DNA of 37,822 bases, from assembly GCA_011171075.1 (NCBI GenBank), contig DUFD01000036.1:1-37822 (forward strand), written 5' to 3'. The notes beneath the pieces were generated by a model. It was not told where the DNA came from, ran no database searches, and saw only the letters and a program-made list of their open reading frames with translations. Source of the stretch: Dehalococcoidia bacterium (GTDB lineage Bacteria > Chloroflexota > Dehalococcoidia > Dehalococcoidales > Fen-1064). Positions 6,720-24,437 of the stretch are shown piece after piece (position 1 is the stretch's first letter; each line of letters opens with the position of its first letter). Made by a program: the position numbers and the translations under genes.

Positions 6720-7790
6720 ATGAACTCAATACTAAATGAAGAGAGGAAGAAAGACTTACGGAGTACTTACGTTCAGGCACCTAAGTTCGGATTGGTACTC
6801 GGCGCTGGTGTAACTGCCAACTCAGGTGTACCTACGTATGATGAATTAGCACTCCGTCTTCTTGAGCGTGCATCTCATGAGAAAGGTTTCTCGGGTTCCC
6901 CGGGTTGGGTGCGCACATTTGTTCAGAACCAGAGAGAACTCCTAGCCAAAAAGGACCGTAAAACAGTACCACCGGATGAAGTTGTACTGTTTACGCGTGC
7001 ACATCTTGGAGCAGACGAAAAGCTCCTGCGCAAACTCACTAAACAAGTACTTTATAAGAACGTAGCAGCTAGAAGAACTGTAGGTAGAGATGCTTTCAGA
7101 AACAACACTACACTCGATGCTATTCTCACCTTTTGTGCAGCCCGGCCCGATACAGTAATTGCTCCAGCTTCCAAATATGAAATTGAGGTGAACGATAGGA
7201 TTGGAGGAATTCTTACGACAAACTATGATAATTTACTGGAAGGTGCTTTCCATACGAAGTACCGGCGTAATCTACTAAAACCCGTCGGTCGCCCCGGTGC
7301 ACGAGAATTCATACGTGGTAGGCGGCTAATCCCTGTTTATCATATCCATGGTTACGTGGGCTACAGAGAACCTGTGGATCTTGATAATTTGCCAAGAACG
7401 TCAGACGTAGTGATTGCTGAGGATGATTACTTTGAGATCTTCTATGATCCTCTAGGCTTCGGTAATTACATCGCGATGAGTTTCTTCCGCCGCTTCCCAT
7501 GTTTGTTCATTGGTTCCGGTCTGGGTGACAAGAACCTGCGTAGATTCCTATTCCACCTCACCAAAGATATAGGTGAAACTGCTACTCACCAAAGAAAGTT
7601 TGCGATCTTGAAATCATCAGAAACGGTTGATGATGAATTCACAGATAAGATCCTCCTGTCATACGGTATCGAGACCATATGGATCTCTAAATATGATGAG
7701 ATTGAAGGAATCCTGCAGAATCTGTATACGTCGGTTGGTGGTGTCAAGAGAACAGATTGGGATTTTGTAGCTGGATATAGGTGGGGTTAA
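6720..7790 (+). CDS. Second, divergent SIR2-like protein, cassette gene 6
   Basis: 356 residues, ATG 6720 with GGGAGGGAG. Motifs in order are LVLGAGVTANSGVPTYDEL at 25-43 (NAD-binding glycine motif), GILTTNYDNLLE with catalytic Asn168 and Asp170, VYHIHGYVG with the likely catalytic His210, and CLFIGSGLGDKNLRR at 261-275. Like gene 1 it belongs to the SIR2_2-like group and lacks zinc Cys pairs. Apart from the NAD-site motifs it resembles gene 1 little, and it starts almost at the Rossmann fold, without gene 1's long N-terminal extension. The two may therefore differ in role, for example effector and regulator. Reading past its TAA, the same frame stays open for 23 more codons. Confidence 0.85.
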   Translation: MNSILNEERKKDLRSTYVQAPKFGLVLGAGVTANSGVPTYDELALRLLERASHEKGFSGSPGWVRTFVQNQRELLAKKDRKTVPPDEVVLFTRAHLGADEKLLRKLTKQVLYKNVAARRTVGRDAFRNNTTLDAILTFCAARPDTVIAPASKYEIEVNDRIGGILTTNYDNLLEGAFHTKYRRNLLKPVGRPGAREFIRGRRLIPVYHIHGYVGYREPVDLDNLPRTSDVVIAEDDYFEIFYDPLGFGNYIAMSFFRRFPCLFIGSGLGDKNLRRFLFHLTKDIGETATHQRKFAILKSSETVDDEFTDKILLSYGIETIWISKYDEIEGILQNLYTSVGGVKRTDWDFVAGYRWG

Positions 7791-14905: not shown

Positions 14906-15586
14906 CTAATCCATCCGTATATCTTTTATATTCCTGATATCTGCCTCCATATTCTTGAGACGAGTGCTCTGAGCAACTAAGACAAAGTATAAAACAGTGA
15001 AGGCAACGATACACACTATCAGTGTAAAGAGCATGGACGGGACAAGCCCACCCTCGAAGATAATGGCCCCTGGATGTTGAGTCCGCCACAGCATCACCGC
15101 CAGAGCCACGACCGGTACATCGATGAAACCGACAATACCAAGCACGGCACTGAGCCTGGCACGCTGGCTATCTTCAGTGACATAGTGGCGTACCAGAAGA
15201 TAGGCTACATAGGTAAACCACAAGACCAGAGTGGCTGTCAGCCGCGCATCCCAGGTCCACCAGATTCCCCAGGCCGCCTTTGCCCATACGCTGCCAGTAA
15301 TCAAGACCAGTGACGTAAAAACAACGCCAACCTCCGCCGAAGCAGAGGCAATCGTGTCCCATCTTACATCCCGCTTCGTCAGATAGAGAATACTGCACAC
15401 AAAGACAACGAAGAACGCCAGGAAACCAATCCAAGCCAGGGGTACATGAAAATAGAAAATCCTCTGCACGGCTCCGGTGTTCTTATCGGTCGGTACGTAT
15501 ATGAAGACCATATAGAGGGCGGCTACCATCAGAGCAAAGCCCAGACCGACAAGTGCGTAATGTTTCAGGGCACCTTTAGCATCCAT
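14906..15586 (-). CDS. ccmC: Heme-handling membrane protein CcmC
   Basis: The second ATG (15586) is favoured: the AGGAG site is 8 nt before it, but only 2 nt before the ATG at 15592. About 226 residues with six predicted helices. The WWD-type tryptophan-rich motif is WGIWWTWDARLTATLVLW, flanked by conserved His residues (YFHVPLAW and the YVAYLLVRHY region). CcmC loads heme onto CcmE on the outer face of the membrane. It follows ccmB with a short gap. Confidence 0.92.
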   Translation of the reverse strand: MDAKGALKHYALVGLGFALMVAALYMVFIYVPTDKNTGAVQRIFYFHVPLAWIGFLAFFVVFVCSILYLTKRDVRWDTIASASAEVGVVFTSLVLITGSVWAKAAWGIWWTWDARLTATLVLWFTYVAYLLVRHYVTEDSQRARLSAVLGIVGFIDVPVVALAVMLWRTQHPGAIIFEGGLVPSMLFTLIVCIVAFTVLYFVLVAQSTRLKNMEADIRNIKDIRMD

Positions 15587-15612
15587 GTGCATATCTCCTC
15601 AGGTTGAGCCGT

Positions 15613-16287
15613 TCATCCCTCAACCACGTATTGAAAGACCAGCGTAGCCACCACCAGGTAGATTATATCGAACGCTATCATTATTTGCAGCCAAGTCATC
15701 ATATCTCCCCAGGGGCTGCTCTGCAGTACCAGAGCCGTTGCCTCGACAGCAGCGATAATCACCGGCACAACGATGGGCAGGAAAAGAATCGGCAGCATGA
15801 TATCCCTTGCCCTGATATTATTAGCCAGCGCTGAGAACAGCGTGCCCACCGAGGTAAACCCCAGGGTCGCCAGCACGATAATTAGAAGCAGTCTCGGCAG
15901 AAACAGCGGCAGGTTAAGAAGAACCAGGAATATCGGTGTAACAATAATCTCGATGGCGAACATGAAAGTAAAGCTACCCAGCAGTTTCCCCCAGTAGATA
16001 AGCATAGGGTCTATGGGACAGAGCAATAGTCCCGCCAGGCGGGAATTCTCCCTCTCTATGGCAAAGACCCGGTTAAGACCGAGCACACCGGCGAAAGTAA
16101 AGGCCACCCAGAGAATGCCCGGAGCCACAAGATTCATCGTAGCCGTTTCAGGCTCAAAGGCGAAGTTAAAAATCACCAGCACCAGCAGGGCAAATACCAG
16201 GATTGCAGTAACACTTTCCTTGGTCCTGATTTCCAGCAGGATATCCTTCCAGAAGATAGCCAGAACCTTGCTTAGCGACCCCCTCAT
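15613..16287 (-). CDS. ccmB: Heme exporter permease CcmB
   Basis: 224 residues with six hydrophobic helices and the CcmB hallmark near the N-terminus (FWKDILLEIRTKE), then RVFAIERENSRLAGLLLCP and TLFSALANNIRARD. It is the membrane partner of the CcmA ATPase; the complex releases holo-CcmE from CcmC. The start overlaps the ccmA stop by 4 bases (ATGA). Confidence 0.92.
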   Translation of the reverse strand: MRGSLSKVLAIFWKDILLEIRTKESVTAILVFALLVLVIFNFAFEPETATMNLVAPGILWVAFTFAGVLGLNRVFAIERENSRLAGLLLCPIDPMLIYWGKLLGSFTFMFAIEIIVTPIFLVLLNLPLFLPRLLLIIVLATLGFTSVGTLFSALANNIRARDIMLPILFLPIVVPVIIAAVEATALVLQSSPWGDMMTWLQIMIAFDIIYLVVATLVFQYVVEG

Positions 16288-17027
16288 TCACCTGTTCCTG
16301 TATAGCTCTGGTAGATTTCGTAGAAATTCACCGTATCAATATCGTCTCTGGAGGCCTGGTAAACGATTTTACCCCTGTCGAGAATAACCACCCTGTCCCC
16401 CATCTCAACCCCCTGCCTCAGATTATGGGTGGTCATCACTATCGTACGCTCCGGTGTATTAACTGACTCAAGCACATCCCTCAGCATAACAACAGCCTGC
16501 GGGTCGAGCCCTGCCTCCGGCTCATCTAGAAACAGTATTGACGGATTGTGAATTATTGCCCGCGCAATGGAAACCCGCTGTTGCATGCCATGCGATAGTA
16601 TACCGACCCGGTCATGCAGACGAGGTTCCAGCCTCACCCGGGCAATAACCTCGCGGACATTCTCTTCAAGGTCAGGCACATCGTGCATTTTTCCGTAGAA
16701 CCTGAGGTTTTCATAAACGGTCAGGTTATCATAGAGGAAGGTATCATGGCTGACCAGACTAATCCGGCGTCTGACTTTAACGGGGTCACTACGAATATCC
16801 TCACCGTCTACACGTACCGTTCCAGAAGACGGCTTGCTGAGCGTGGACAGTACCTTGACCAGAGTTGTCTTCCCGGCACCATTCGGGCCAAAGACAATCA
16901 CGTGCTCGCCCCTGCCGATCTTCAGATCGATATTGCTAAGGGCGCGATTACGCCCGAATGACTTGCTCAGTGCCTCAACCTCGATGGCCCAAGCAGTCAA
17001 GGCAGATTCTGTCTCATCCATTATCAA
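16284..17027 (-). CDS. ccmA: ABC transporter ATPase CcmA
   Basis: 247 residues. Walker A is FGPNGAGKTT, Walker B is ILFLDEPEAGLD, and the signature motif reads LSHGMQQR instead of LSGGQ, a common variant in this branch. The start is either TTG 17027 or ATG 17021; both overlap the previous gene's end. With CcmB it powers heme-chaperone release during cytochrome c maturation. Confidence 0.92.
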   Translation of the reverse strand: MIMDETESALTAWAIEVEALSKSFGRNRALSNIDLKIGRGEHVIVFGPNGAGKTTLVKVLSTLSKPSSGTVRVDGEDIRSDPVKVRRRISLVSHDTFLYDNLTVYENLRFYGKMHDVPDLEENVREVIARVRLEPRLHDRVGILSHGMQQRVSIARAIIHNPSILFLDEPEAGLDPQAVVMLRDVLESVNTPERTIVMTTHNLRQGVEMGDRVVILDRGKIVYQASRDDIDTVNFYEIYQSYTGTGE

Positions 17028-18042
17028 TATCTACACTCTCAGGCGGCTGCGGGGCAGTTAGCGATTGAGCCTGTGCTCTTCTCCTCATATAGTAGGTGAC
17101 TAGAACAATAATCACCACAACCGCACTAGCCCCAATGATGATGAATGGCAGGCTGCTATCGCCGGCTAAACTCGAGAGGTGGATATCCACAGTATCACCC
17201 CGCTCCAGACCATCTACCGTAAAATGTATGAACTTCTCTCCGGTCTCAGTAACTATTGGCCCGGCCGGGTTTAATCTGGTACTGGCAACTTCAATATCCT
17301 CTCCCTGAACCATAATATGTAGCGCATCGGTGGGATAATCCGCGAATAACTCAATAACCAGGTCACCAGAAGCAGGACTTTCAAACCTGTAAGAGAAAAC
17401 AATTTCCCTCTCACCCGGAGGAAATATCAGAGTGTTGCTCACAGTGTCATCATCGACCATGAAGTAATCTGCTACGAATTCTTCCGGTACCTCAAATTCG
17501 AGTGCTCCCTCTGGTAATGTGAAGACCAGCACCCCCTGTGTCCCCTCGAAATTTGTATCTTCCGAGCCCACATAGGTCCTGTCGCCATCATTAAGCAACC
17601 ACATTACCTGCGCCACCGAGAAATAGCCATCCTCGGCATAAAGTACAATATGACAAAGGTTAACCCTTATCGCCTGGTCACTGGTAGTCGTATCACAGAC
17701 CGGTACCTCGATAGATTTTTCTGTCTCCTCGTCCCCGAACTCAATCGGGTAGTAATAATCAATCTGCATATAGCAGACCCTCACCAGATAGCTCTGCTCT
17801 ACCGAGATATCCGCGAAACGGAATTTGCCTTCTCCATCTGTTTCGCTGGTCTGTATCTCTCTTGCTCCGTCTTCAATCCAGGCAATCAGAGCAACCTCAA
17901 GTCCGGCGACACTACCCCCGCCCTCGGTCTCATTGACCACCTGCCCCTCAATCACGCCTTGCTTTGAGTCCTGAGCACTGAGGTTACCCGGTAGTCCTAT
18001 GGCAAGGATAATCGCCAGTATGTATATCAGCTTCCGCATCAT
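17014..18042 (-). CDS. Exported, membrane-anchored protein with carboxypeptidase-regulatory-like beta domain, inside the ccm operon
   Basis: 342 residues. An N-terminal signal peptide (IYILAIILAIGLPGNLSAQ) is followed by a carboxypeptidase-regulatory-like domain near 30-105 (IEGQVVNE...GEGKFRFADI), a second beta-rich region, and a C-terminal helix at about 303-322 followed by RRR and a short tail. The start overlaps the ccmF stop by 4 bases and the end overlaps ccmA by 8 to 14 bases, so it is translationally embedded in the ccm operon. It is not a known Ccm component. It could present apocytochrome or substitute for the missing CcmG/CcmH/CcmI functions, but I see no CxxC thiol motif. Confidence 0.75.
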   Translation of the reverse strand: MMRKLIYILAIILAIGLPGNLSAQDSKQGVIEGQVVNETEGGGSVAGLEVALIAWIEDGAREIQTSETDGEGKFRFADISVEQSYLVRVCYMQIDYYYPIEFGDEETEKSIEVPVCDTTTSDQAIRVNLCHIVLYAEDGYFSVAQVMWLLNDGDRTYVGSEDTNFEGTQGVLVFTLPEGALEFEVPEEFVADYFMVDDDTVSNTLIFPPGEREIVFSYRFESPASGDLVIELFADYPTDALHIMVQGEDIEVASTRLNPAGPIVTETGEKFIHFTVDGLERGDTVDIHLSSLAGDSSLPFIIIGASAVVVIIVLVTYYMRRRAQAQSLTAPQPPESVDIDNG

Positions 18043-20009
18043 CTGTCCTTATACTGCGAATCACGTCTTTCCTGGTGCGAAAAAGCAACAACGCCACCTA
18101 TCAATAGAAGTCCGCCCCCCACCCATATCCAGACAACCAGAGGATTTATCATAGCCCTGATTGTAACCGATTTGTTCTGCTGGTCAAAGCTGGTCCATAC
18201 CAGAGAAACGAACACGTCCTCGGCTGGCGTAGTGCGAACAGCTACCTCGGCGAAGGTATCCATATAGCTGAACCAGTAATTATTCTCCGGGTATAAATTA
18301 CCGATATGGCGACCCTGCCTGCTCATGGATACTGTGGCGACAGCACTCACCTTCGTCTGGCTTCCTTTTAATATCAGTTCGTCATAGGCTAAATCATACT
18401 CCCCAACCTTCATCGACTGACCGACATCCAGACTTACCATGTTCTCCGCACTGTAAAAGGACGAGGCTATGATGCCAAGGGTTATCAAAATGATGCCAAT
18501 GTGTACCAGGAAACCACCGTACCTGGGACGATTACTATTGAGCATGGCTAACGATGCCCGGAGGTAGTTTTCCTTACGATCCTGGTGCCGTGCCTTCGCT
18601 CGTCGGAACCATTCAAGCAAGATGGTAAAAACGGGGAAGGAGCAAACTGCCGCCGAGATAAGATACCATTTACCGCCACCGACAATTAGGATGATTACCA
18701 CGACAAGCAGCGTGGCCAGTAGACTGAAAACGAAATTGCTCCTTACGGATTGCCATGAGGTCTTTGCCCAGCCTAATAGAGGACAGACCCCCATAAAAAA
18801 CACCAGCAAGAGCATAATCGGTCCGGCTACCCGGTCGAAGAAGCTGCGGTCGATAGCTATCTGTGTACCGCCGAACAGCTCAACTACCCGCGGAAGTACT
18901 GTTCCAAAAAGGATAACCGCCGTCAGCAGTACCAGAATGATATTGGTAACCTCAGACGCCCCTTCTCTGGAGATGAGTGTAAAAGACCTCTCGTCCTTCT
19001 GGAAGTCTTTACGACGCATGTAAAGCAGTCCCAGAGAGCCAGCCAGCGTAACCAGTATTACCGCCAGTATATAGGGCGGGAAATGCGAACCATAGAAACC
19101 GTGCAGTGGAGACTCAATACCGCCGTGCGTAATGAATGGAATGAGCAGAGTGAATTCAAAAGTTAAGATAGCCAGCACCAGGCTCCATCTCTGCAGATGA
19201 TTCCTCTGCCTCTGGACAGAGATTGAGTGAACGAAGGCTGTTATTAATAACCACGGCATCAGGCCGGCATTTTCGACAGGGTCCCATGCCCAGTAACCTC
19301 CCCAACCCAGCTCATTATAGGACCACCACATCCCTATCAGGTTACCCAGTCCCAGCGTGCACCAGCCAAAAAGTGCCCAACGCCTGACCCACCTTACACA
19401 CTGAGCACCGGGGGTATGGGTGATGAGCGCCGCTATTACTATGGCGAAAACAACGGACACTGCGGCAAAGGAAAGATAGAGCATCGGTGGGTGTATCAGC
19501 ATGGCGACATTCTGAAGGAGTGGATTCAGACCAACTCCTTCGGCAACCGGAGCCGGGTTTTTCTCGAAGACGTTCACCACGAAGGTCACCATCGCCAGGA
19601 AAAACAACTGTATGGCTGCCAGGACACAGAGCATGCAAGGCAAGATTGAATTATCGTATTCGTGTTTTCGGGAAGCTATCAAGGCAGAGAAAAGTGAAAT
19701 CAGCCATCCCCAGAGCAATACCGAGCCACCTTTATCGGCATACAGAGCGCTTAATGCATAAGCAGCAGGCAAGCTGCTGTCAACGTGCTCGGATACAATC
19801 TTAAGGCTGTAGTCTCTGGTAAGAAAGGCAAATACAGCCGTAGCCAGGGCCAGACTGTAAAGGACGGCAATACTGATAACAGAAATCCGGGTAATTGAGA
19901 TGAACCGGCGAGAGCCTGTACGAGCACCTATCCCCGCGACCACCGCCGATACGAGTGCCGCCAGAAATGCCAGTATTATAGCGCCCTGCCCTATCTCTGC
20001 TGTACCCAA
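18039..20009 (-). CDS. ccmF: Cytochrome c heme lyase subunit CcmF
   Basis: 656 residues from a TTG start, the first possible start after the ccmE stop. It has many membrane helices and the heme-binding WWD motif WGGYWAWDPVENAGLMPWLL, plus conserved His residues (IHPPMLYLSF; LLIPFITHGG). CcmF joins heme from CcmE to apocytochrome CxxCH cysteines in the periplasm-like space. This matches the presence of an 11-heme cytochrome gene next to the operon. Confidence 0.92.
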   Translation of the reverse strand: MGTAEIGQGAIILAFLAALVSAVVAGIGARTGSRRFISITRISVISIAVLYSLALATAVFAFLTRDYSLKIVSEHVDSSLPAAYALSALYADKGGSVLLWGWLISLFSALIASRKHEYDNSILPCMLCVLAAIQLFFLAMVTFVVNVFEKNPAPVAEGVGLNPLLQNVAMLIHPPMLYLSFAAVSVVFAIVIAALITHTPGAQCVRWVRRWALFGWCTLGLGNLIGMWWSYNELGWGGYWAWDPVENAGLMPWLLITAFVHSISVQRQRNHLQRWSLVLAILTFEFTLLIPFITHGGIESPLHGFYGSHFPPYILAVILVTLAGSLGLLYMRRKDFQKDERSFTLISREGASEVTNIILVLLTAVILFGTVLPRVVELFGGTQIAIDRSFFDRVAGPIMLLLVFFMGVCPLLGWAKTSWQSVRSNFVFSLLATLLVVVIILIVGGGKWYLISAAVCSFPVFTILLEWFRRAKARHQDRKENYLRASLAMLNSNRPRYGGFLVHIGIILITLGIIASSFYSAENMVSLDVGQSMKVGEYDLAYDELILKGSQTKVSAVATVSMSRQGRHIGNLYPENNYWFSYMDTFAEVAVRTTPAEDVFVSLVWTSFDQQNKSVTIRAMINPLVVWIWVGGGLLLIGGVVAFSHQERRDSQYKDR

Positions 20010-20012
20010 TAA

Positions 20013-20396
20013 TCACTCTTGTGGTTCATATTTTGACGGACATTTCAGAATGATTGTGCTCGCCTGAAATGTATTATCTGAGCGATACTCACCCTCCACG
20101 AGAACATTGGAATCCTCCTTGAGACCGCTGGGCCGGGCACCTTCATATACAACCAGCAGGTCCTCACCACCCTCGGTAATGACAAAATCCAGCTTAAGAG
20201 TATCGGCATCCCATTCTATAGAGTTATCAACCACCTTGCCAGCCACCCGGACCCGTTCCCCGTATAACTCGCTACCTCTATCCAGGAGTTCACTCACCGT
20301 CAGGTAGTAGCTGACCGCACTACCAAGGCTAGCGTATACCAGAAGACCGACTGCCACGGCAAGGATACCCCCCCCAACGAAATATCTTTTCCTCAT
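20013..20396 (-). CDS. ccmE: Heme chaperone CcmE, Cys (CxxxY) type
   Basis: The ATG at 20396 is preferred because the probable promoter (20426-20455) places the transcript start near 20419, downstream of the alternative ATG at 20423. About 127 residues: an N-terminal anchor helix, then the OB-fold with VRVAGKVVDNSIEWD, DFVITEGG, VVYEGARPSGLKEDSNVLVEG. The end is TIILKCPSKYEPQE. The heme-attachment site is therefore C-x3-Y instead of the usual H-x3-Y. Cys-type CcmE is known from archaea and Desulfovibrio, in systems that lack CcmH. Confidence 0.88.
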   Translation of the reverse strand: MRKRYFVGGGILAVAVGLLVYASLGSAVSYYLTVSELLDRGSELYGERVRVAGKVVDNSIEWDADTLKLDFVITEGGEDLLVVYEGARPSGLKEDSNVLVEGEYRSDNTFQASTIILKCPSKYEPQE

Positions 20397-20425
20397 GCCT
20401 CTGCCTGCTCCGTTACCCTGCATCC

Positions 20426-20455
20426 AGTCTACTACCACTTGGAATATAGTGTCAA
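20426..20455 (-). promoter_or_regulatory. Promoter for the ccmE operon
   Basis: On the minus strand, TTGACA (20455-20450), an 18-nt spacer and TAGACT (20431-20426) match the sigma-70 consensus in 6/6 and 4/6 positions. It gives a leader of roughly 23 nt before ATG 20396. The CstR-like site at 20500-20516 lies about 45 bp upstream. Confidence 0.5.
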
Positions 20456-20701: not shown

Positions 20702-21688
20702 ATGCGTATCAAAGATTGGCTGAGAATCCTGTTGGTTTTCAGTGTGGTTCTATTGCTGTTTACCATGCCAATGCTTACCGCCTGTGGTGGCGGAGACGGG
20801 GAACAGGAGGAGGAAGAAGAAGAGGAAGAAGAAGAGGAAGCGTCAGAATTCGAAATAATCATGGAGGCCATTGAAGACTATCTGGCCGACAAGGCTGGTA
20901 ACATGAGCGCCTCCGATTTACATGTGCGGATTGCCGAAGATGACGCACCTTACATTGTCAGCATACGCAGCGCGGCTGATTATGCCGCAGGCCATATCCC
21001 GGGAGCGGTTAACATGACATTTGGCCAGTTGACCACACTCTCCGATGACGAGGAGATTCTGGTCTATTGCTACACCGGCCAGTCAGGCTCGTTTGCGGCT
21101 GCCATGCTCGGTGTCCTCGAATATGACGTCACGAACCTGCTTCACGGCATGTGTGCCTGGTCGACCGACCCGGCAGTTACCGGGACTGGCTGCTTCAATG
21201 CCAGTAGAGACCAGGGCGACTACGCTGTCGAAACTACCGCCAACACCGTTACCACAAGTTATGATTACCCCGAACTGGACAATACTACTTCAAGTGATGA
21301 GGACACAATCATTGAGGCTGCCGCAGCAACCGTTTCGCCAAGCTACATCACGGCGGCGGACCTTAACCTGAAGATTGCCGAAGAAGAGGACATGACTATA
21401 ATCAGTTGTCGCAGCGCAGCCGATTACGCCGCTGGTCATATCCCCGGTGCTATCAACATCGGCATAGACAGTCTGCTGGACAATCTTGACAAGATAGACC
21501 CCGACGCGCCGGTCTACGTGTACTGCTATACCGGACATACCGCTGGCCAGGCAGCCGCCCTGCTCCAGATGCTTGGGTACGACGCCTACAGCCTGAAGTT
21601 CGGTATGTGTTCGTGGACTTCGGACCCGGCGGTTCATATGAATAAATGCTTCAACGCCAGTACAGTCACGGGTTACGACGTAGAGTAG
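20702..21688 (+). CDS. Tandem-rhodanese lipoprotein with poly-Glu linker
   Basis: 328 residues, ATG with AAAGGAGG. The lipoprotein signal ends in LTAC with lipid-anchored Cys28. A linker contains 11 consecutive Glu (36-46). Two rhodanese domains follow, each with AADYAAGHIPGA and an active loop: CYTGQSG with Cys123 and CYTGHTA with Cys275. Each domain ends with a similar MC(A/S)W(S/T)(S/T)DPAV...CFNAS segment, so the pair is an internal duplication. Rhodaneses carry sulfane sulfur as a Cys persulfide. On the outer face of the membrane it would handle thiosulfate, polysulfide or persulfide. A CstR-like site precedes it. Confidence 0.9.
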   Translation: MRIKDWLRILLVFSVVLLLFTMPMLTACGGGDGEQEEEEEEEEEEEASEFEIIMEAIEDYLADKAGNMSASDLHVRIAEDDAPYIVSIRSAADYAAGHIPGAVNMTFGQLTTLSDDEEILVYCYTGQSGSFAAAMLGVLEYDVTNLLHGMCAWSTDPAVTGTGCFNASRDQGDYAVETTANTVTTSYDYPELDNTTSSDEDTIIEAAAATVSPSYITAADLNLKIAEEEDMTIISCRSAADYAAGHIPGAINIGIDSLLDNLDKIDPDAPVYVYCYTGHTAGQAAALLQMLGYDAYSLKFGMCSWTSDPAVHMNKCFNASTVTGYDVE

Positions 21689-21808: not shown

Positions 21809-23104
21809 ATGAAGCGCGTATCGTTTGCCGTCGTTGGCCTTGCCTTGCTCGCTGCGCTCGTATTATCGGGCTGCGCTGTCTCTCCCGGGCCACCGGCAGG
21901 TGAGGAGGTAAGCACCTGTGTTACCTGTCACAGCGACAAAGACCTTCTCCAGGAAACGGCTTCGGTTGTAGAGGAGGAGGTATCCGAAGCAACCTCCGGC
22001 GAAGGCTGAGGGGGTGAGTTGCCTCCGTTGGAGGAATGGGAAAAGGTCTACCTGAAGAATACCAGCTTCTTAGAAGATGCTCATGGCAAGGTTGGCTGTG
22101 TAATTTGTCACGGCGGTGACAGCAGTGCTGGAGAGAAAGACGATGCTCACGTCGGGATAATAGCCGACCCATCCGAAGAGAGCTGCGCCATCTGCCATAG
22201 TGAGATTACGCTCCTCCATGAGACCAGCCTGCACGCCACTCTCAGCGGTTTTATGAGCAAGCTCGAAGCCCGGGGCGGTGACCTCAGTGAAGGTTCAGCC
22301 CTTGATGAGGCTTTTAACAATCACTGCCAGCAGTGCCACACTACATGCGGCCAGTGTCATATCAGCCGACCGGACGAACTGGGTGGTGGACTGATATCAA
22401 GCCATGTTATTAAGGCGACCCCATCGATGCAATACAACTGCGTTGCCTGCCACGGTGCCCGGGTCGGCGACGAGTACCTGGGGAATAATACCGGCATCCC
22501 GGCCGATGTTCACTGGACACAGGAAACGATGACATGTGCCAGATGCCACGGGCAGGAACTCCACGGCACGGGAGAGATTGCCAGCGACCGGTACAGCAAC
22601 ACAGTATCAGTTAAGTGTGAGGACTGCCACGCGGATGTCCTGACGGATACGGCTGGTAACCCGCAGCATGAGCAGCACATCGGTGATCTCCAGTGTCAGG
22701 TATGTCACTCCGTAGCCTACAAGAACTGCTATGGTTGCCATGTGGCCCTCGATGAGGAAGGTTTACCCTGCCGCACCAGTGAGCCCTCGCAGTTACAGTT
22801 CGAGATAGGCTACAACCCGATACAGTCAGCGGATAGACCTTATAAATATGTTGTACTACGACATGTCCCAACGTGTGCCGGGACCTGCGACTACTACGGG
22901 TCAAATCTCATGCCCGATTTTGACACCGTATCAACTTGGAAATACGCCACACCACACAACATCCAGTTACACACACCACAGAACGAGAGCTGTAATTCCT
23001 GCCACGGCAATGAGGACCTGTTCCTTACCGAGGATGATATTCTAGCCGAGGAAAGGGAAGCAAACCGGGGGGTTATAGTAATAGACATCCCAGACCCCCA
23101 GTAA
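21809..23104 (+). CDS. Eleven-heme c-type cytochrome lipoprotein with in-frame TGA at codon 67 (candidate selenoprotein)
   Basis: The frame from ATG 21809 (GGAG upstream) runs 431 codons to TAA 23102-23104, with one in-frame TGA at 22007-22009 and no frameshift. The first 66 residues give a lipoprotein signal (LVLSGC, Cys22) and one heme site (CVTCH). The part after TGA has ten more CxxCH motifs: CVICH, CAICH, CQQCH, CGQCH, CVACH, CARCH, CEDCH, CQVCH, CYGCH, CNSCH. The downstream part has no signal peptide of its own, so it could not be exported or receive heme if translated separately. The TGA is followed by a CCTCC-GTT-GGAGG hairpin (22022-22034). I read TGA as selenocysteine (GEG-U-GGE); a disabling mutation or reinitiation at TTG 22019 are the alternatives. 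Role: electron transfer outside the cytoplasmic membrane. Confidence 0.75.
22007..22034 (+). promoter_or_regulatory. Candidate bacterial SECIS element in the cytochrome gene
   Basis: TGA (22007-22009) is followed by stem CCTCC (22022-22026), loop GTT (22027-22029) and stem GGAGG (22030-22034). The loop starts with G and lies 17 nt after the TGA, within the 16-37 nt window described for bacterial SECIS. The stem is short (5 bp), so the match is permissive. Confidence 0.5.
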
Positions 23105-23138: not shown

Positions 23139-23984
23139 ATGGAACTAGGGCGCAGAAACTTCTTAAAGGCATCCGCCGGAGCGGCAGCAGGACTTATCCT
23201 GTTCAGAAGCACGAAATTTGGTAATGTGGCAAAGGCTGCTCCCGCTGAGTCGGACCGTGCCATGCTGGTAGACGTTACAAAATGCATTGGCTGCTGGTGG
23301 TGCTATGCTGCCTGCAAGAACTATAACAACAATCCGGAGACCTCCAGGCCTATCTCCGAAGAGCCGCCCGAGCTGGAAGCAGACTGCTGGTCCACCCTGT
23401 TCCCCCTGAAAAAGGGCGATGAATGGAGCCATAGAAAACATGCCTGCATGCACTGCACCGAGGCCAGCTGCGAAGAAGTATGCCCCACGGGAGCCATCTC
23501 ACACCAGGGAGAGATTGTAGTCATTGACCAGGAGTGGTGTATTGGCTGCGGTTATTGTGTCCAGGCCTGTCCTTTCGGCGTTCCCCATAAAGACGAACAT
23601 CTGGGAACTGCCCGTAAGTGTACCTTCTGCATCGACCGGATAAATAATGACCAGATACCCGCCTGTGCTGATGCCTGCCCAACCGGCGCAATTCAATATG
23701 GCAGGCGAGGCGACCTGCTTGAGGTAGCCGAAACGCAGGTTCAAGCCCTGAAAGATGCCGGGACTCTCACAGCTAATCTTTACGGTAAAAACGAACTAGG
23801 TGGTCTGCATGTCCTCTACGTGCTCGATGATAGCCCTTCCGTCTACGGGCTCCCTGAGGAACCGAAGTTGGCGACTGCAAAGGTCCCCTTCCAGTGGCTC
23901 AGCGGTATTCTCATGGGTGGCCTGGTTGCCGTCGTGCCGTTCTGGTTCATCTTCAAGCGGAAGAAGAAGATAGAGGCAGAGTAG
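23139..23984 (+). CDS. Tat-exported 4x[4Fe-4S] ferredoxin subunit with C-terminal membrane anchor
   Basis: 281 residues, ATG with GGGGAG. A twin-arginine signal (GRRNFLKA, RR at 5-6) precedes four Cys clusters typical of HybA/FdnH/NrfC proteins: CIGCWWCYAAC, CMHCTEASCEEVCP, CIGCGYCVQACP, and CTFC with CADACP. A single helix near 248-268 followed by KRKKK anchors the C-terminus. Such subunits wire a periplasmic catalytic or cytochrome partner to a membrane quinone site, but no NrfD/HybB-like membrane subunit or molybdopterin subunit is encoded here. The adjacent multiheme cytochrome is the likely partner. Confidence 0.9.
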   Translation: MELGRRNFLKASAGAAAGLILFRSTKFGNVAKAAPAESDRAMLVDVTKCIGCWWCYAACKNYNNNPETSRPISEEPPELEADCWSTLFPLKKGDEWSHRKHACMHCTEASCEEVCPTGAISHQGEIVVIDQEWCIGCGYCVQACPFGVPHKDEHLGTARKCTFCIDRINNDQIPACADACPTGAIQYGRRGDLLEVAETQVQALKDAGTLTANLYGKNELGGLHVLYVLDDSPSVYGLPEEPKLATAKVPFQWLSGILMGGLVAVVPFWFIFKRKKKIEAE

Positions 23985-24146: not shown

Positions 24147-24437
24147 CTATTTAGCATCGCCAACCCGCACCCTGCCCCAGATAGCTACGACACGCGCTAG
24201 CGATTCAACCGCAGATTCTTCAGAATCCCAATCTTTGCGTAAACAAATATCCATGTAGTTAGTCAGTATCAGCTGGCCTACACTTTCAACAGCTGAACGA
24301 ATTGCTGCCAGCTGAGTAACCAGACTTTCACATTCTCTATCATTAATGAGCATCTTCTGGATACCCCGTACCTGTCCCTCAATCCTCTTCAGCCGCTTTA
24401 GTATAACTTCCTTTGGCACCTTTGTTTCTGTAGCCAT
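24147..24437 (-). CDS. CsoR-family repressor, CstR-like (Cys-Tyr-Cys)
   Basis: 96 residues, all-helical, with the family opening LKRLKRIEGQVRGIQKML and the central AAIRSAVESVG. The ligand positions of copper CsoR are Cys36, His61 and Cys65. Here Cys36 and Cys65 are present but residue 61 is Tyr. Loss of the His with retention of both Cys is the pattern of CstR, which senses persulfide/polysulfide and controls rhodanese genes. The nearby tandem rhodanese and the matching 17-bp operator-like sites at 20500 and 24617 support a sulfur-sensing rather than copper-sensing role. It is transcribed away from the site at 24617. Confidence 0.85.
   Translation of the reverse strand: MATETKVPKEVILKRLKRIEGQVRGIQKMLINDRECESLVTQLAAIRSAVESVGQLILTNYMDICLRKDWDSEESAVESLARVVAIWGRVRVGDAK

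Follow-up and report, generated by a model that had tools for sequence, protein, structure and literature searches.

Does the TGA codon that interrupts a multiheme cytochrome gene of a Dehalococcoidia bacterium encode selenocysteine (Sec), and what might such a protein do? The gene lies in the window, which is the whole stretch of DNA that was analyzed (37,822 nucleotides, contig DUFD01000036.1), and comprises the following features.

21809 to 23104, forward strand: coding sequence of an 11-heme c-type cytochrome, a predicted lipoprotein (C22), of 431 amino acids plus a TAA stop with UGA read through; full-length homologues are present.
22007 to 22009, forward strand: in-frame TGA, codon 67, the putative Sec codon; TGA occupies this position in 60 of 61 relatives and in another 10 inspected matches from the phylum, and TAA or TAG never does.
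22022 to 22034, forward strand: SECIS-like hairpin core CCUCC-GUU-GGAGG, with its loop at 22027 to 22029, within codons P72-P73-L74-E75; supported by synonymous constraint and a compensatory pair.

Translation of the frame from 21809 to 23104 gave a single internal stop, the TGA at codon 67. The original prediction had described one frame broken only by this TGA, with a signal peptide and one heme before it and ten hemes after it, and this was confirmed by translation and by the count of CXXCH motifs (11 in total, 1 before and 10 after); the predicted local context, GEG-U-GGE, was also obtained by translation. The signal peptide ends in a lipobox, LSGC, in which C22 is the predicted lipidated Cys. 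The protein thus carries both marks of a multiheme c-type cytochrome, several CXXCH motifs (11) and an export signal (the lipobox signal). In a Pfam search, Cytochrome_C7 was over the cut-off, and otherwise only c3-like stretches were seen. The AlphaFold model of the cytochrome had a pLDDT of 87, and a Foldseek search of this model against the PDB gave no fold matches (best E, 2.8). The family has a conserved Sec loop between hemes 1 and 2, [ST]-x-GEG-U-[GA]G-x-x-PPLE-x-WEK, whose conservation equals that of the heme motifs. The near-invariant positions of the family are the 11 heme motifs, nine other His residues, the Sec loop, W77, and K79. The product is predicted to be an exported, lipid-anchored 11-heme protein with one Sec between hemes 1 and 2.

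The codon aligned with residue 67 was examined in relatives. Among 40 near relatives, there were six further matches, each with one internal TGA, at the same codon where it was read. A scan of a genome collection with the family alignment yielded 61 loci with 34–82% identity, a set that overlaps the near relatives. TGA was present at the Sec codon in 60 of these, and the remaining one, L102, had TGG. When 400 genomes from the phylum were surveyed, every full-length match contained one TGA, which was at the Sec codon in those inspected. Neither TAA nor TAG occurred at this codon in the 61 collection loci or the inspected phylum matches; for L130 an additional TAA is recorded, whose position places it upstream of the gene body. 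A more distant relative, L112, has Cys (TGT/UGU) at the Sec site (the region is around 584–700 of this locus), followed by a frameshift in a run of seven C that is either a sequencing slip or the mark of a decaying gene. SelB had no match in the genome of L112 (G130, 84% complete). One Cys form was seen against about 70 Sec forms. The original prediction had proposed that Cys or further in-frame UGA codons in homologues would support Sec, and this comparison turned out in its favor (60 of 61 UGA, one UGG, and Cys in one more distant relative). The pattern expected of a selenoprotein, a UGA conserved in homologues and aligned with Sec or Cys, was thus observed, with the Cys variant being the one that is frameshifted just after the site.

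The original prediction had also proposed a stem-loop whose loop begins with G and lies 17 nt after the TGA, and this structure was found at 22022–22034. The hairpin begins 12 nt past the UGA and has a 3-nt loop. The bacterial SECIS (bSECIS) model sets limits on the loop size, a G in the loop, and a spacing of 16–37 nt (PMC13188914), and the window hairpin matches it on loop, G, and spacing. Its energy is −7.0 kcal/mol, slightly above the cut of −7.5, and a competing local fold has −8.7. As judged from the single sequence, the hairpin evidence is weak; the comparative evidence lifts it far beyond chance. Because the PPLE protein motif itself constrains the hairpin stretch, synonymous sites were tested. 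The codons of P72, P73, L74, and E75 had the four lowest synonymous-codon entropies of 94 conserved columns (0.06–0.28, against a median of 0.82). The peptide patterns used for finding loci include PPLE and, according to their description, were back-translated into every possible codon, so that the search should not have biased codon choice. In addition, one clade reads APLEP instead of PPLE[AV] (GCU CCG UUG GAG CCN), by which the closing pair is changed from C-G to G-C and both amino acids are replaced. The closing pair is formed in all 63 distinct sequences (55 C-G and 8 G-C), whereas 49 would be expected if the columns were independent; this swap may be one event, because the sequences share ancestry. 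The loop is GUU in 63 of 63.

Some relatives have variants of the hairpin. L126 has lost the innermost pair and kept four, and L101 and L103 have a different G-first hairpin at the same place, CCCCGCU-GGA-AGCG(U)GGG, with −9.6 kcal/mol. In L102, the UGA-less sister of these two that has Trp at the site, the hairpin is lost and the region folds only to −3.9 kcal/mol. The predicted fit to the bacterial SECIS model was accordingly strengthened by selection on synonymous sites and the compensatory swap, with the window energy just above the cut; a bSECIS-type hairpin after the UGA was found in terms of its 3-nt G-first loop, spacing of 17 nt, and covariation. A search of the window with Rfam at the gathering threshold detected only a tRNA.

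The genes for Sec insertion were then sought in the genome, as the original prediction had suggested. tRNA-Sec (68 bits, in agreement with ARAGORN), selB, and selA are neighbors on one contig of the window's genome. This part of the expected machinery was present, but selD was not found in the 93%-complete assembly either by profile or with the protein of a genus-mate, though two genus-mates (G001 and G002) carry it beside selA. The corresponding interval beside selA in the window's genome (L040 4947–5310, G000 contig C45) has no selD, and [NiFe] hydrogenase genes follow directly. The selD genes of relatives (L032–L037) have an in-frame TGA, so that the selenophosphate synthetase of these relatives is also predicted to be a selenoprotein. 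SelB was over the cut-off in 52 of the 59 Sec-cytochrome genomes searched. Since SelB is also common across the phylum (about 307–311 of 400 genomes), this co-occurrence is consistent with Sec and not probative, and it was rejected as decisive evidence.

How else could the UGA be understood? By default, a stop codon ends translation, and this one could have arisen by pseudogene mutation or assembly error, leaving two halves that are separate or dead; in the list of open reading frames, downstream of it there is only a 361-aa frame starting from TTG, without a signal peptide. However, about 70 independent assemblies have UGA at this very site, where it is never exchanged for TAA or TAG, and the 61 relatives keep heme motifs on both sides of it in a gene without any other in-frame stop, which leaves this explanation with hardly any probability. 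Reading of the UGA as another residue, by reassignment to Trp or Gly or by SECIS-independent readthrough, would accord with the UGG of L102. It is nevertheless very improbable, because TGA ends 11 of the 29 large genes in the window, which makes UGA a stop in this genome, because the conserved Trp of the cytochrome gene is encoded by UGG, and because the hairpin is under selection and tRNA-Sec, selA, and selB are present. The 11 TGA stops also led us to reject reassignment of the genetic code. Comparison of these gene sequences thus indicates that the UGA almost certainly encodes Sec.

The 61 collection loci are mostly from Chloroflexota. The other labels are Planctomycetota, Calditrichota, Eisenbacteria, and Thorarchaeota (one each), Krumholzibacteriota (two), and two further bacteria. 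In a phylogenetic tree, the window cytochrome groups with Dehalococcoidia, and the non-Chloroflexota members lie outside on long branches. The Thorarchaeota-labelled contig, L058, was rejected as an archaeal member, since it nests in Chloroflexota and has their rhodanese fusion; it is likely mis-binned. The Sec cytochrome occurs twice in one genome, G434 (on contigs C164 and C524), and one copy is within an 829-residue open frame (L123). About 20 CXXCH motifs are found in one frame at L090 2342–4813, which is probably an extended form of the family.

To consider what the cytochrome might do, its neighboring genes were examined. The following features flank it in the window.

14906 to 20438, reverse strand: cytochrome c maturation genes for CcmC, CcmB, a CcmA-like ATPase, one further protein, CcmF/NrfE, and CcmE, divergent from the operon.
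20702 to 21688, forward strand: tandem rhodanese lipoprotein, the first gene of the operon; two PF00581 domains, with the active-site Cys in both (CYTGQ and CYTGH).
23139 to 23984, forward strand: 4Fe-4S ferredoxin-type subunit (FdnH/HybA/HmcB-like) with a TAT signal and a C-terminal membrane anchor; identified by Pfam and NCBIfam.
24147 to 24437, reverse strand: CsoR/RcnR-family regulator with Cys36 and Cys65 kept and Tyr at the His61 position.

The rhodanese gene predicted to adjoin the cytochrome gene was thus located on its 5′ side. Four other genera or families retain the block of ccm, rhodanese, cytochrome, and Fe-S genes, and in them an FdnI-like cytochrome b comes next. Of the 36 loci having more than 1.5 kb on both flanks, 29 have a rhodanese gene beside the cytochrome gene, and these rhodaneses have two to six domains with an active-site Cys. 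In L053, L057, L058, L059, and L061 the rhodanese is fused in frame to the cytochrome, and L107 has a C-terminal fusion. Partner subunits were also recorded: Fe-S in 22 loci, NrfD-like in 10, and FdnI-like in 9, the Fe-S subunit gene being conserved 3′ of the cytochrome gene in relatives. A LysR regulator is near the cytochrome in 17 loci; for the four that were scanned, the closest model was that of selenium metabolism, NF040786, with 222–247 bits against a cut-off of 250, so that they come close to this model without belonging to it by that criterion. A CsoR-family regulator adjoins the cytochrome locus in the window and in several Dehalococcoidia loci. Its Cys pair without the metal-sensor His is presumably the CstR-like, persulfide-sensor pattern, and we infer that the regulator belongs to the cytochrome system. 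Elsewhere in the window (6720–7790, forward strand) is a gene for a SIR2-like domain protein that is possibly defense related.

A role of the cytochrome in sulfur or selenium redox chemistry is plausible, and the rhodanese fusions strengthen it. The protein would be an enzyme of the periplasm or cell surface that is connected to the quinone pool, and its Sec would take sulfane sulfur from the rhodanese or give it to the rhodanese. The function that we tentatively favor over the others is the reduction at Sec, by electrons of the hemes, of sulfane sulfur delivered by the rhodanese. The comparative evidence indicates that SelB and tRNA-Sec decode the UGA with the hairpin. In the tentative scheme, the tandem-rhodanese lipoprotein would hold sulfane sulfur as cysteine persulfide and hand it to the Sec selenolate; the quinol pool would supply electrons to the heme chain by way of the Fe-S subunit and a membrane anchor, which in relatives is FdnI- or NrfD-like; and the heme chain would reduce the Se-S bond, with the release of sulfide.

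Other functions must be weighed against this reduction. The reverse direction, in which sulfide or thiosulfate is oxidized at Sec, sulfane sulfur is passed to the rhodanese, and electrons enter the quinone pool, would suit modules of the FdnH/HybA with FdnI or HmcC/HybB types, which usually feed electrons into quinone, and the rhodanese could act as the acceptor. We consider it unlikely, because the taxa of the family include lineages usually regarded as anaerobic. The Sec selenolate could also take part at a heme itself, either as its axial ligand or within a substrate site on a heme without a His ligand. With 11 heme motifs but only nine other near-invariant His residues, two hemes are left without a conserved His partner; to our knowledge, heme-selenocysteine ligation has no example in a biological c-type cytochrome, and the idea is a good deal less probable than not only the reductive but also the oxidative function. 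The reduction of selenium (or tellurium) oxyanions in place of sulfane sulfur, as proposed for the ext cluster of Geobacter, would be in line with weak matches to ExtM, ExtN, and ExtO, with the combination of rhodanese, multiheme cytochromes, b-type cytochrome, and Sec cytochrome that ext likewise shows (PMC5877670), and with the neighboring LysR being nearest to a selenium-metabolism model. On the other hand, every ext match is far under its cut-off (ExtM, 25 against 800 bits), the porin ExtI was not identified, and the rhodanese points rather to sulfane sulfur, so that this function is no likelier than the oxidative one. What probability remains falls to a heme-ligand, structural, or other role.

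In searches with NCBIfam, no model reached its cut-off on the window cytochrome family, and no curated family claims the protein. No report of the Sec multiheme cytochrome family was found in open-access papers. These proteins thus represent an uncatalogued family of Sec multiheme cytochromes with a link to sulfur-transfer enzymes. Most members are from Chloroflexota and a few from other phyla, and automatic annotation is likely to split their genes in two. According to a review, Cys homologues exist for almost all selenoproteins (PMC13188914); because only one was seen here, searches based on Cys pairing would tend to miss the family. That Sec is retained and seldom replaced by Cys points to a reaction dependent on selenium. 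Together, Sec, eleven hemes, and tandem rhodaneses suggest an unrecognized sulfur/selenium redox route in anaerobic subsurface and sediment bacteria, for which the cytochrome offers a clear protein for testing.

Among known systems, the polysulfide reductase of Wolinella receives sulfane sulfur from a periplasmic rhodanese, Sud, and has an Fe-S subunit and an NrfD-like anchor; its catalytic subunit is a molybdoenzyme. The window family resembles this system in its rhodanese, Fe-S, and NrfD-like module, as seen from gene adjacency and fusion alone, and differs in that a multiheme selenoprotein is proposed in place of the molybdoenzyme. Within the wider relationship, a Sec-less distant relative, L135 (G442), shares the homologous heme region (143 bits), but the whole Sec loop between heme 1 and heme 2 is absent; L135 (712–2424, reverse strand) adjoins a NapC/NirT-like small cytochrome. 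The best sequence similarity of the window protein, mostly around heme motifs, was to ExtM (NF040943) and the DmsE type (TIGR03508), with 25 and 19 bits where 800 and 192 are required; neither is reported with Sec in the list of the review (PMC13188914).

The original prediction had called Sec in a multiheme cytochrome unusual, which holds, but precedents exist in other families: a 2026 review lists two, ExtKL and the octaheme TIGR04315, the latter via one GenBank member (PMC13188914). TIGR04315, a tetrathionate reductase family, is likewise multiheme, with eight hemes against eleven; three of 55 family members give any match to its model (best E, 2.4e-6), none over the cut-off of 375 bits. 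A TIGR04315-like octaheme gene lies downstream of the Sec cytochrome in L070 (4179–5750; 164.6 bits against the same cut-off), and similar genes are found in about 12 loci. ExtKL (NF040886) is encoded in a gene cluster of Geobacter that has been connected with the reduction of selenite and tellurite (PMC5877670). NF040886 (cut-off, 250 bits) gave no match among the 55 family members at E 0.01 or to the window protein at E 10, and ExtKL has five hemes, not eleven. It is nonetheless also a predicted Sec c-type cytochrome clustered with a rhodanese-like protein and a b-type cytochrome (PMC5877670, PMC13188914), and ExtKL and the window family, though separate families, may function in a similar way.
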